A stretch of 64,000 bases of DNA, taken from the NCBI GenBank assembly GCA_021732785.1, contig JAKFUG010000037.1, positions 1 through 64,000 of the forward strand, given 5' to 3'. Shown in pieces: positions 5,434 to 50,395 of this stretch. The notes below the pieces were generated by a model. It worked only from the letters and a program-made list of their open reading frames with translations. It was not told the DNA's origin and searched no databases. The DNA comes from Planctomycetaceae bacterium (GTDB lineage Bacteria; Planctomycetota; Planctomycetia; Planctomycetales; Planctomycetaceae). Position 1 is the stretch's first letter. Every line of letters begins with the position of its first letter. The translations under genes were made by a program, and so were the position numbers.

Positions 5434-5446
5434 TCAACGATCTGGT

Positions 5447-5516
5447 GTGTGCCACTGGCTCTGCCAGTGTCTTTCGAATGGGAGAAAAGGCAACACTGGC
5501 AGAGCCAGTGGCACAC
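5447..5516. repeat. Family A inverted repeat, copy 1
   Basis: The arm contains GTGCCACTGGCTCTGCCAGT and is repeated in inverted orientation after a ~20 nt spacer. Each arm is itself a hairpin (CACTGGC-TCT-GCCAGTG). It begins 14 nt after the stop of the BFD-like gene. Confidence 0.9.
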
Positions 5517-5635
5517 AAGAGTCAGCTCTCACCGCATGAATGGGAGCACGAACAGACAATCATCGTTCACTTTGTGTCGTGATAGAATGCGGGCATCGTC
5601 TCCACGTCATCGCCTCATCCGCGGGCCTCTCGTTC

Positions 5636-7704: not shown

Positions 7705-10491
7705 ATGCGGCAATTTTGGCTGGCGGTGATCGCGGGGGCAGGACTGTGCAGCACGGTCACGGTCGACGCTGCGCCGCCGGTGCATCAATTCCTGGACGCG
7801 TGGTGTGCCCAACCGCGGCCACCGGTCCCACAGCGGGGCGCGCGACCCCGACCTCGCCGACCCGACAACAATGACGAAGTCCGCGGGACCACCGATCCCC
7901 CTGCGGTCAAATCGTTCTGGGAACAAGCCGACACGGTTCTCACCGGCATGAAAGGCCGTCCCGGCAAAGCCCCCGAGGTGAACTACGACGATGGCCGCGT
8001 GGTGGCGATCATCGATAAAGCCGCCGTCGGGCTGTTCTACGAAGAACAGGGCCCCATGCGGTACCTCGCGTTCCACCTGCGGGTGGGCAGCACGCGGAAA
8101 AACCGGCCGTTGTCGTGGCAACGGGAAGAGATTTCCGCCACGCTCGACGGAGTGGTTCACACCATCGACGAAATCAAATCGCCCCTGGTCAACCACGGCT
8201 TTCAACTCGGCAGCGAACACATTCCGTTGCGAAACTGTCAGCCCCCGGCAACGCTCGCCCTGCCCGCTCAGGGGGTGACCGGCACGTGGCTCGTGTTCGG
8301 GAACATCGCCGTCGGGGGGGAATTGCCGAAGGTCACCATCCGGTTGCCCGTCGAAAAAGACACGTTGGAAATCGACGTGGCGGAAGTCCAGCGGGCCTTG
8401 CTGGAACTGCAGGTGGAGCGGATCGGCCCGCGGGGCAGCCTCGCGCTCATCACCATGGGGGGCATGCTCAACACGTACAACGTGTACGGTGTCGCCGGGG
8501 AACTCGATGCGCTGACGGCGCAGAAAATCTCGCGGGCCGTCATTCAATGGACGCCCGCCGCCCCCACCCCTGACGGGCAGTTGCTCAACTGGTTGCAGCA
8601 ATCGGCCCAGTCGGCGGGATCGGGCCGCGCGGTGAATGAAATGCTGCCCACCATCAGCGGCGGGTTGAAAGAACTGCACCTCGTCCAATTGAAAACGGGC
8701 GGCTTCAGCGTGGGCCTGTACCGCGGCCAGACCGGAACCGCGAAAGTGCATCCCTCGGCCGCGGACGCCGTCTCGGCGGCACTCCGCTCGGGACTGCTCA
8801 CGCTTACACGCGATGAACTGCGCGAGCAGATTCAGCGGGGCCATCCGCTGGCCCGTTCGGCCGCACTGCGTCATGGAGCACCGCAACTCGACGTCACGGA
8901 CGTGCCCTTGTTGTTGAAGCTGAGTCGTGATGAAGACCGGATCATTCGCACAGCGGCGTTGCAGGCGCTCGGCGATTTCACCGAGGTCCCCGAGGCCCTG
9001 GCACGCCTGTCGGAAGTGGCACGACAGGACGATGAAACATTGGCTGCCGTGGCGATTGCCGCGGTGATGGACTCCCGGTTCGAAGCCGGGTCCCGCACGA
9101 TCAAGGACTGGCTCACCGTTCCCGAAGTGAAATTGCAAAACCGCGTGCTGAGCGTGCTGGCCGAGCATCCCCGCCCGGAATGGGGCGATTCGCTGTTCTC
9201 CCACGCGCACAGCCCCGATGGTCGCCTGCGTGTGGAAGTCCTGCGGGCGCTGGTGCCCCTCGATCATCCAGGGTTGGTGAGCTTGCTCGAAGAGGCGCTC
9301 AAGAGTCCCGATCAATCGCTGCGGGATTTTGCCTTCCCGATTCTGTCACTGCGAACCGATGAGCGCTGCGAGTTGCTGGCGAGCCGGTATGCGCTGTCTT
9401 CGCTCGATCAGTTTCCGCCCGACTCCGCGATGATGGAGTTCTTCACGCGGACGAAAGATCAACGGGCGCTTCCCGCATTATTGCGACATCTCGACAGCGC
9501 GCCCGATCGCAGCGGACTGATCAATCTCCTCGGTCAAATGGGCGATCATCGCACGGGGGACTACCTCGCCCAACGGTTTCCCAAATTCAAACCGCACGAA
9601 CAATCCGCCATTCTGCATGCGCTGCGCTCCTTGCGGCACGAACAGTTTCCGACGCTCGCCGCCCAGGCGCTCACATCCACCGATGGTTCGCTGCTCTCCG
9701 CCGCCACGAACGGATTGCAGCAGGATGGGAGCAACGCCGCGGTCGATGCGCTGGTGCGCGGATTGGAAAAGCAGACGCAGCCGTATGGGATTTCGATGAT
9801 CTGCAATGCGCTGTCGAGCATCGGCACGCCCGCGGCGCGAACGGCGTTACTCGCACAGCGGGGTTCAAAAGAACTGCCACGCCGCAATGCGGGGCTGCAG
9901 GGATTGCAGAATCTGCAAATGCGGTCGCCGGGGTATGCGTATATCCATCAGGCCCGGGCCCATCGGCTGAATCGACAAGACACGGAAGCGATGGATCTTT
10001 ACACGCTCGCCATTCAAATTGACCCGGAGCTTGCGGACGCGTATTCCGGTCGTGGTGAGTTGAAGTTGAAGTTGGAGAAGTGGGCGGAGGCTTCGGCCGA
10101 TCTCTCCAAAGCCGCGGAATTGGACCCCTACAATGGTCTCGCGTGCAGCGGTTGGGCCATCGCGCTGGTGATGCAGGGCCGCTACGAAGACGGTGTCCGC
10201 ACCGTGGAAGCCGCCCGCGAGCGACTGACCGGCGACGTGAATTACTCGTACAACGCCGCGTGTGTCTATGGCCGATTGGTCGAGGCGACGCTCAAGCAGC
10301 CGGAATCGACCGAACGGGAAACGCGCGTCAAGCAATACCGCCAGCAAGCCCTCGCGGATCTCGCGGCGGCGATCAAACAGAATTTCCGCGACTTCAACTG
10401 GATGCGCGAAGACCCCGATCTCAAGCCGCTGCACGACCTGCCGGAATTCCACGACCTGATCAAAGCCGCGGAAGCCAAACAACCGGAGTGA
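7705..10491 (+). CDS. Secreted HEAT-repeat / TPR protein
   Basis: The 928-residue product has a signal peptide (MRQFWLAVIAGAGLCSTVTV). An N-terminal region of about 300 residues is unrecognised. HEAT-like helical repeats follow from about residue 370 to 720 (for example LLKLSRDEDRIIRTAALQAL). At least two TPR units are at about 740-850 (LYTLAIQIDPELADAYSGRG, ADLSKAAELDPYNGLACSGW). Such repeats are protein-binding scaffolds; no catalytic motif is seen. GTG 7693 is an alternative start four codons upstream. The TGA stop at 10489-10491 coincides with the first bases of a family D palindrome. The partner protein is unknown. Confidence 0.8.
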   Translation: MRQFWLAVIAGAGLCSTVTVDAAPPVHQFLDAWCAQPRPPVPQRGARPRPRRPDNNDEVRGTTDPPAVKSFWEQADTVLTGMKGRPGKAPEVNYDDGRVVAIIDKAAVGLFYEEQGPMRYLAFHLRVGSTRKNRPLSWQREEISATLDGVVHTIDEIKSPLVNHGFQLGSEHIPLRNCQPPATLALPAQGVTGTWLVFGNIAVGGELPKVTIRLPVEKDTLEIDVAEVQRALLELQVERIGPRGSLALITMGGMLNTYNVYGVAGELDALTAQKISRAVIQWTPAAPTPDGQLLNWLQQSAQSAGSGRAVNEMLPTISGGLKELHLVQLKTGGFSVGLYRGQTGTAKVHPSAADAVSAALRSGLLTLTRDELREQIQRGHPLARSAALRHGAPQLDVTDVPLLLKLSRDEDRIIRTAALQALGDFTEVPEALARLSEVARQDDETLAAVAIAAVMDSRFEAGSRTIKDWLTVPEVKLQNRVLSVLAEHPRPEWGDSLFSHAHSPDGRLRVEVLRALVPLDHPGLVSLLEEALKSPDQSLRDFAFPILSLRTDERCELLASRYALSSLDQFPPDSAMMEFFTRTKDQRALPALLRHLDSAPDRSGLINLLGQMGDHRTGDYLAQRFPKFKPHEQSAILHALRSLRHEQFPTLAAQALTSTDGSLLSAATNGLQQDGSNAAVDALVRGLEKQTQPYGISMICNALSSIGTPAARTALLAQRGSKELPRRNAGLQGLQNLQMRSPGYAYIHQARAHRLNRQDTEAMDLYTLAIQIDPELADAYSGRGELKLKLEKWAEASADLSKAAELDPYNGLACSGWAIALVMQGRYEDGVRTVEAARERLTGDVNYSYNAACVYGRLVEATLKQPESTERETRVKQYRQQALADLAAAIKQNFRDFNWMREDPDLKPLHDLPEFHDLIKAAEAKQPE

Positions 10492-10552
10492 GCGGCACGG
10501 CGCTAGCCGCCGGTGTGTTGTGCCTAACCGGCGGCTAGCGCCGTGCCGCTCA
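10489..10552. repeat. Family D inverted repeat, copy 1
   Basis: The arm GAGCGGCACGGCGCTAGCCG plus CCGGT is repeated inverted after ~12 nt. The element starts with the TGA stop codon of the HEAT/TPR gene. A second copy is at 22333-22405. Confidence 0.85.
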
Positions 10553-17354: not shown

Positions 17355-17380
17355 CGGCGGCGCTCCGACATCAGCATATC

Positions 17381-17458
17381 GTAGGGTTTGCCGAGTCCGC
17401 GAGGCGAACCAATTCTTGCACACTCAAAGGTTCGCCTCGCGGACTCGGCAAACCCTAC
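17381..17458. repeat. Family C inverted repeat, copy 1
   Basis: The arm GTAGGGTTTGCCGAGTCCGC plus GAGGCGAACC is present twice, inverted, around ~18 nt. Each arm can fold on itself (GGTTTGCC with GGCGAACC). It lies 14 nt beyond the stop of the glycosyltransferase. Confidence 0.9.
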
Positions 17459-17472
17459 GTGCTCTGTGCATC

Positions 17473-21188: not shown

Positions 21189-22391
21189 ATGGGATTCGAA
21201 AGGGTCTGTTTCGTGGATGTGATCGATCTCGATGCCAATGCAACAACGCGGCCGTGGCCCGAAGTCGCGGAGTGCGTGGCCCGGCATCTGCGTGAGACCT
21301 GGGGCAACCCCGGCAGCCGCCATGCCCTCGGTCGGCGGGCCCGGCAAGTACTCGAATCGAGTCGCGAAACCATCGCCGGCATTCTCGGTGCCGAACCGGA
21401 CGAAGTCCTCTTCACGAGCGGCGGTACGGAAGCGAACAACCTTGCCGTGTTTGGACTGCCCCGCGGAAATCGCGGGACGTTGGCCATTTCTCCCGGCGAA
21501 CATCCGTCGCTGCATGAAGCCTGCACGGTCATGCAACAACGCGGCTGGAATCTGCACAAGTTTCCGGTGGATCGGAATGGGTTGATCACGACGGATGCGG
21601 GACATCAGGCACCGTGGGCCGAGATCAAACTCGCCGCGGTTTTGCTGGCCCACAATGAAACCGGCGTGATTCAGGATGTCGTGCCAATTTCCGATTTGTG
21701 TCGGCAGCACGGCGTGCCTCTTCATCTGGATGGGGTGCAAGCCGTCGGTAAAATTCCCGTTGATTTTCACTCGCTGAAGGCCACGTCTTTGAGTTTCGGT
21801 GGCCACAAATTCCACGGGCCGCGCGGTGTGGGCGGATTGCTGTTGCGGCGGGGGACGAAACTCACGCCGGAGTTCGTCGGCGGTCATCAGGAACAAGGCC
21901 GCCGGGCAGGGACCGAACCGGTGGCGCTCGTCGCGGGGATGGCCCTGGCATTGGAACTCTGGCAACGCGATCAGTCACAACGAGTGACGAGATTGACCGA
22001 ATTGCGCGACCGCTTGCAGGCGGGGCTACTCGAACGCTGTCCCTTTGCCATCGTGCATGCGGCTGATGTGGCCCGGTTGCCGAACACACTCAACATTGCG
22101 TTTCCGGGCATCGACGGCGAAGCCTTGCTGGTCGCGCTGGATTTAGCGGGTGTCTGCGGTTCGCTGGGGAGCGCGTGTGCCAGCGGATCGACCGAACCCT
22201 CGCCGATTCTCGTGGCGATGGGTTGCGACCCCGCGGTGTATCGATCTTCGTTGCGATTGACGGTCAGCGCGATGAATACCGTGGAAGAAATTGATCACGC
22301 CGTGCAGCGAATTATCGCGACGGTCGCGCATTTGAGCGGCACGGCGCTAGCCGCCGGTTCTTCTTCAATTCGTGGACACACCGGCGGCTAG
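21189..22391 (+). CDS. Cysteine desulfurase (IscS/NifS family)
   Basis: The 400-residue PLP enzyme removes sulfur from cysteine, giving alanine and an enzyme persulfide for Fe-S assembly. Seen: IDLDANATTRPWPEV, FTSGGTEANNLAVFG, HNETGVIQDV, HLDGVQAVGKIP, the PLP-binding Lys in SFGGHKFHGPRGVGG, and the catalytic Cys in SLGSACASGSTEPSPILVAMG. Homologs begin near IDLDANATT, so GTG 21213 or 21219 may be the true start instead of ATG 21189. The last ~19 codons (LSGTALAAGSSSIRGHTGG) are read entirely from a family D palindrome, which also provides the stop. SufE at 12191 is a plausible partner. Confidence 0.92.
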   Translation: MGFERVCFVDVIDLDANATTRPWPEVAECVARHLRETWGNPGSRHALGRRARQVLESSRETIAGILGAEPDEVLFTSGGTEANNLAVFGLPRGNRGTLAISPGEHPSLHEACTVMQQRGWNLHKFPVDRNGLITTDAGHQAPWAEIKLAAVLLAHNETGVIQDVVPISDLCRQHGVPLHLDGVQAVGKIPVDFHSLKATSLSFGGHKFHGPRGVGGLLLRRGTKLTPEFVGGHQEQGRRAGTEPVALVAGMALALELWQRDQSQRVTRLTELRDRLQAGLLERCPFAIVHAADVARLPNTLNIAFPGIDGEALLVALDLAGVCGSLGSACASGSTEPSPILVAMGCDPAVYRSSLRLTVSAMNTVEEIDHAVQRIIATVAHLSGTALAAGSSSIRGHTGG

Positions 22392-22405
22392 CGCCGTGCC
22401 GCTCA
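22333..22405. repeat. Family D inverted repeat, copy 2, inside two gene ends
   Basis: Same arms as 10489-10552. It encodes the last residues and TAG stop of the cysteine desulfurase, and its right edge (GCTCA) contains the TGA stop of the convergent YhcH gene at 22403-22405. Confidence 0.85.
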
Positions 22406-22861
22406 GTTCTCGATCACGACCTTCATCACGACCTTCATCACGTCACGCGATTCGCCATCGGCGAGACTCGGGGCGTGGATGTCTTCGGGATAGAAAATCG
22501 CGAACTGCCCGGCCCGCAGCGTGAACGTGTCGCGGCCCGGTTCGTAGAACATCACGTCCTTCGCTTCGCTGTAGGCCATCTGCACGGCCGGGGCGTTTTC
22601 CAGCGGGACATAACCGATCCGCTCTTCCCCGGTGACAACGTATTGCACATCGATGTATTTTCGGTGCGATTCCCACACCGCTTGTTCGGGCAGCTTGGTG
22701 CGATACCGCATGACATTCGCGATCAACCGCGGACCGTCGATTTCCATTTTGCCATCCGGCAACTGGGTGAAATCGACCGATCGCAAATACCGCAACGCCG
22801 CCGCGATGCCGGGGGACAACGAGTCACAACGATCCGCGCGGCTGAGCAATTCCAAAATCAT
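22403..22861 (-). CDS. YhcH/YjgK/YiaL (DUF386) family protein
   Basis: The 152-residue product belongs to a cupin-fold family linked with sugar metabolism (E. coli YhcH sits in the sialic-acid cluster; TabA is another member). Seen: the family signature ESHRKYIDVQYVVTGEERIG, then MFYEPGRDTFTLRAGQFAIF and YPEDIHAPSL, which hold the metal-binding Glu and His positions. The C-terminus VMKVVMKVVIEN contains a short tandem duplication visible in DNA as repeated ATCACGACCTTC. The stop codon is supplied by a family D palindrome shared with the convergent cysteine desulfurase. Enzymatic activity is not settled for the family. Confidence 0.85.
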   Translation of the reverse strand: MILELLSRADRCDSLSPGIAAALRYLRSVDFTQLPDGKMEIDGPRLIANVMRYRTKLPEQAVWESHRKYIDVQYVVTGEERIGYVPLENAPAVQMAYSEAKDVMFYEPGRDTFTLRAGQFAIFYPEDIHAPSLADGESRDVMKVVMKVVIEN

Positions 22862-22877: not shown

Positions 22878-22958
22878 GTAGGGTTTGCCGAGTCTTCGAG
22901 GCGAACCAATGATTGTCACAACGCCTGTGGTTCGCCTCGAAGACTCGGCAAACCCTAC
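22878..22958. repeat. Family C inverted repeat, copy 2
   Basis: Arms GTAGGGTTTGCCGAGTCTTC plus GAGGCGAACC, inverted around ~20 nt. It ends 10 nt before the stop (minus strand) of the secretin-N-like gene. Confidence 0.9.
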
Positions 22959-35606: not shown

Positions 35607-35684
35607 GTGTGCCACGGCCGTGTCGGCCGTGAGAATTGGCCAAACGCACCGCAAAACTGCACGGCCGACACGGCCGTGGCACAC
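35607..35684. repeat. Family B inverted repeat, copy 1
   Basis: Inverted GCCACGGCCGTGTCGGCCGT arms (each a hairpin, CACGGCCG with CGGCCGTG) around ~30 nt, with GTG/CAC ends as in family A. It ends five nt before the HD-GYP-like stop. Confidence 0.9.
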
Positions 35685-50327: not shown

Positions 50328-50395
50328 AACCAGCCGGAAGCGCCAGCGCCCGGTTTCTACATCGAAGAACCGGGCGCTGGCGCTTCCGACTGGTT
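50328..50395. repeat. Family G inverted repeat
   Basis: Arms AACCAGCCGGAAGCGCCAGC plus GCCCGGTT, inverted around ~12 nt. It starts 9 nt after the permease stop and is followed by the metK terminator. Confidence 0.85.

Follow-up and report, generated by a model that had tools for sequence, protein, structure and literature searches.

The closest described relatives of the element reported here are the REPINs or BIMEs (Bertels and Rainey 2011, PMC3116915), in which conserved units in inverted orientation enclose a less conserved spacer, form hairpins, and are dispersed at mostly extragenic positions. GTAG defines the head of most REPs. The GTAG- and CGTC-tagged REPs have been reported in Planctomycetes and their relatives, where most of them adjoin convergent or unidirectional gene ends, frequently at less than 20 bp from the 3' end (PMC3733652). 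The termini of these REPs supply stop codons, and some REPs at ORF ends encode residues (PMC3733652). In E. coli, REPs located 15 nt or less from a stop codon have been linked to reduced translation (PMC12306157). The class 3 TnpA_REP or RAYT proteins are found mainly in Planctomycetes, Acidobacteria and Proteobacteria (PMC6006769). The Rickettsia palindromic elements, as cited in PMC3733652, are likewise palindromic repeats through which host proteins gain amino acids.

The present study concerns a palindrome located where two convergent genes meet within a 64,000-nucleotide stretch of a Planctomycetaceae genome, referred to here as the window. The repeat family to which the palindrome belongs, family D, shares all of the REPIN/BIME features listed above and differs from them in its TGAG head, its perfect long arms, and the fact that no cognate RAYT was found beside a copy. 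Since its outer end reads TGAG, family D falls outside the GTAG REP superfamily and the stop codon it supplies is TGA rather than the TAG of the GTAG-tagged REPs (PMC3733652). Compared to the Rickettsia elements as cited there, the addition is at the C-terminus only and the stop is read from the element. REPs are already known to sit at gene ends, to supply stops and to encode residues, and the site is a clear but not unusual case of a known kind of repeat, one that is present in bacteria in dozens of copies.

Anatomy of the palindrome and the flanking genes

The palindrome occupies 73 bases (22333-22405) and is composed of two perfect 26-nt arms, 22333-22358 and 22380-22405, that are 100% complementary and separated by a 21-nt loop. 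The left arm, on the plus strand, begins with the TGAG head and continues with the hairpin-capable CGGC-AC-GGC-GCTA-GCC-GCCG, and the right arm, on the minus strand, is its exact reverse complement. The spacer (22359-22379, without assigned strand) reads TCTTCTTCAATTCGTGGACAC and nearly matches the loop of another copy, L054. The palindrome is therefore REPIN-like in the sense that it presents two inverted REP units and a variable spacer. An RNA fold of positions 22320-22420 has a calculated energy of -70.9 kcal/mol (z = -10.3 versus shuffles), and none of 200 shuffled sequences was equally stable. A single D arm folds into 4 bp, a 2-nt bulge, 3 bp and a 4-nt loop and is no better than shuffles (z = -0.87). 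An Rfam scan of the window returned no match, nor did a plasmid search with the element and its flanks as the query.

The gene to the left encodes a cysteine desulfurase-like protein (Aminotran_5; 21189-22391, plus strand, with a putative start codon), and the gene to the right encodes a YhcH/YjgK/YiaL protein (DUF386; 22403-22861, minus strand). Both family assignments were confirmed by Pfam. The desulfurase ORF proceeds from TVAHL into the tail SGTALAAGSSSIRGHTGG, crosses the left arm and the loop, and ends within the right arm at a TAG (22389-22391). From the ORF translation, the tail and its TAG span 22335-22391 on the plus strand, and the predicted C-terminal peptide of the protein is SGTALAAGSSSIR. 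On the opposite strand, the TGA stop of YhcH (22405-22403) is made up of the final three bases of the palindrome, at the outer end of its right arm. The repeat, the fold and the ORFs together confirm the arrangement seen in the first-pass annotation, in which the palindrome holds the desulfurase end with its TAG and the YhcH stop lies in the right edge. Its estimate of about 19 desulfurase codons in the palindrome needs a small correction: 18 codons are fully inside, and the first codon of the tail, TTG (Leu), straddles the left edge. A second, GTAG-headed palindrome (family B) is located at 22878-22958, just upstream of the YhcH start, such that YhcH is bracketed by two doublet families.

When 36 desulfurase homologues were compared, the SGTALAAG tail was present in none of them. 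Beyond the same point, the homologues carry tails of 1 to 17 residues that vary freely, versus 18 residues here. The tail had been described at first as unlike that of normal desulfurases; this holds for its sequence, but its length makes it less odd than supposed. The predicted new tail of the desulfurase and its stop derive from the element.

Family D across the window and the genome

Four copies of the 25-nt arm, making up two doublets, are present in the window, where 0.00 are expected. The second doublet is located at 10489-10552 (no strand assigned), and the gene on its left side terminates at the TGA of the doublet's left edge. In the 6.69-Mb assembly, a 20-nt core of the arm has 99 matches (49 forward, 50 reverse) versus 2 for a reversed control. 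From genome stretches around the copies, 47 complete inverted doublets were analysed, which places the genome total at 47 or more. In these doublets the layout is TGAGCGGCACGGCGCTAGCCGCCGGT, a spacer, and the reverse complement of the first arm; the arms are conserved and the spacers differ widely in length and sequence. Some copies nonetheless have a spacer in common, namely the focal copy and L054, and also L040, L041 and L053. The same variant is often present on both arms of one copy. Nearly all doublets are TGAG-headed, with 84 of 94 outer edges reading TGA, and the bases immediately outside the edges show a weak bias towards TT(C/T)G.

With a simple, home-made gene finder, 46 of the 47 doublets were found to be intergenic or located at the end of a predicted gene, 37 of the 51 gene 3' ends that face a copy either overlap it or lie within 20 bp of it, and the TGA edge serves as a stop codon in 8 of the 47 copies; these counts are approximate because the finder misses the desulfurase itself. 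One further gene, Ham1-like, likewise extends into a D arm (L045:2109-2180) and has a C-terminus of SGTALAAGS; its homologues are 5 to 10 residues shorter at this end.

The window holds at least four further families of inverted doublets, A (GTGTGCCACTGGC), B (GTAGGGTTTGCC), C (GTGTGCCACGGCC) and E (AGCCGGAAGCGCC), with example sites of such families at 5446-5517, 17380-17459, 35607-35684 and 50328-50395. At L003, L048, L051 and L062, arms of families D and A are found joined or facing each other, and the families appear to mix.

The same junction in a congener

A syntenic site lacking the element was found in one relative, G002, a member of the same genus. In G002 the two genes are also convergent, the desulfurase is 81% identical, and there is no palindrome at the junction, which reads GTGAAACGCTTGCGGG-TCA-ATCCTCGATC. 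The junction was compared by codons; an automatic global alignment misplaces part of the flank within the element. Read in this way, the G002 junction is CGC TTG CGG G TCA ATC CTC GATC and that of the window is CAT T[TGA...TCA]GTT CTC GATC. The G002 desulfurase ends in VKRLRVNPRSAPSSPL and runs into the 3' end of YhcH. Its RLR ending was found again in many of the 36 homologues. Since RLR is common among the homologues and the SGTALAAG tail occurs in none, a gain in the window is favored over a loss in G002.

The YhcH protein of G002 ends in VLIED followed by TGA and has the same length as in the window. Since both genes use TGA at an identical codon position, the TGA edge of the element coincides with an ancestral stop; as judged from this comparison, the YhcH stop position is the presumed ancestral one and the terminal TGA of the element falls on it. 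The first-pass annotation had credited the element with both stop codons and with repair of the reading frames. The first part applies to the desulfurase and is not supported for YhcH, and no repair is needed since the desulfurase simply reads to the first stop and YhcH keeps its end. Its proposal of an insertion at a gene end, with the tail and stop of the desulfurase encoded by the element, is borne out by the empty site in G002 and by the absence of the tail from all homologues, the two comparisons that it had put forward as a check.

Thus, it is very probable that a REPIN-like element inserted in this lineage at a convergent gene junction, whereby the desulfurase gained a tail and YhcH kept its stop. 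With the insertion, the desulfurase gene lost its last bases to the element and acquired 18 new codons and the TAG. Such elements may persist because insertions at gene 3' ends would do little harm. In the mRNA, the long hairpin would be expected to protect 3' ends and might slow termination.

It could be argued from the very stable hairpin and the preference of the family for gene 3' ends that the palindrome is under selection as a bidirectional terminator or mRNA stabilizer between the convergent genes. The full stem is not followed by a long T run, however, and the terminator-like match is a short internal stem. Furthermore, the congener lives without the palindrome and near-identical copies are found in other gene contexts, making this explanation unlikely. 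A second alternative, that the element is ancestral and was lost in G002 through a deletion between its arms that left TTGCGGGTCA as a scar, is given a somewhat lower probability still. Large palindromes are prone to deletion, and the four bases (CGGG) between TTG and TCA in the G002 junction can be read as remnants of the arms. Against this, the CGG codon is the arginine of the RLR ending, which recurs in homologues from other genera, and G002 therefore looks ancestral. An insertion in the lineage of the window remains the preferred explanation.

Other family D sites in the congener

Eleven orthologous D sites could be compared between the two species, bearing in mind that about 6 of the 25 chosen loci were missing from the first DNA query and that a second query added five loci. 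The D copy is absent from G002 at eight of these sites (the focal site, L008, L034, L040, L041, L049, L055 and L056) and is common to both species at the other three (L015, L019 and L031), a pattern in keeping with a mobile element. At L031:2568-2632 and its counterpart L173, the two arms carry whichever variant is commoner in the respective genome (GCACGG here, GCAAGG in G002), which suggests either concerted change or re-insertion. At another shared copy, L019:1498-1564 versus L164, the spacer looks reverse-complemented in G002, as if it had been flipped between the arms.

Of seven genes with a TGA edge that were comparable with the relative, four have their stop at the same codon (YhcH, a P450, the L040 gene and GlgC). 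The peptide deformylase gene is one codon off, and the other two terminate about 6 to 8 codons sooner. One reading is that existing TGA stops form part of the target, such that the element slots in flush and the stop is preserved; we consider a preference of this kind improbable.

A candidate mobilizer and its linked family

Nine Y1_Tnp loci were identified in G000, the genome to which the window belongs. One of these (G000:C22:38675-39124) matches PF01797 with E = 1.3e-9 and has the motifs NHVH and YVNERQ; from a comparison with the motif table in PMC6006769, its product is a predicted class-3-like RAYT. The class-3-like RAYT of G000 (L117, L152) is bracketed by two complete family E REPINs, and its homologue in G002, at 83% identity, is likewise flanked by E REPINs. 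A related RAYT gene in G001 is flanked by related repeats. With their NHVH and YV--Q motifs and their REPIN flanks, the Y1_Tnp proteins of G000 and G002 resemble the class 3 proteins (PMC6006769), the difference being that the flanks belong to family E and not to family D.

The D and E arms have the same fold layout (an outer stem, a 2-nt 5' bulge, a 3-bp inner stem and a 4-nt loop) and have a TTCTTC inner edge in common, suggesting that the two are sister REP families. Family D may be mobilized in trans by a RAYT-type HUH (Y1) transposase. No D copy was found within about 1.5 kb of a Y1_Tnp gene among the loci found in G000, G002, G008 and G016, and the expectation that a class-3-like RAYT would adjoin a D copy in other D-bearing genomes failed. 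A class-3-like RAYT is present in G001, which has no family D; G012 and G016 have family D and no class-3-like RAYT, both being assemblies that are less than 80% complete. Since no D copy lies beside a Y1_Tnp gene and the two co-occur inconsistently, mobilization of family D by the class-3-like RAYT is something that we only infer. For want of a cognate RAYT flanked by D, the element is called REPIN-like and not a proven REPIN.

That the element is instead a MITE of a DDE-type insertion sequence, with terminal inverted repeats around a non-coding core, is very improbable, since its inverted terminal arms, dispersed copies and absence at eight of eleven G002 sites would fit, but no direct target duplication is apparent by eye beside the 47 doublets (the comparison being with a single close relative, about 80% identical at the DNA level), the D cores lack the conservation expected of a MITE core, and each arm has a REP-like layout that is also seen in the RAYT-flanking REP.

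Significance

To what has been described for REPs, this insertion of a REPIN-like element adds a TGAG-headed REP family alongside a sister family that is linked to a RAYT, together with a relative that lacks the element at the site. It provides a planctomycete case in which a mobile palindrome rewrites the C-terminus and stop of a metabolic gene while leaving the end of the convergent neighbor intact. The sister species without the element makes it possible to separate what such elements add from the prior state. Should further genomes bear out the coincidence with ancestral TGA stops, the choice of target by these elements would become testable.
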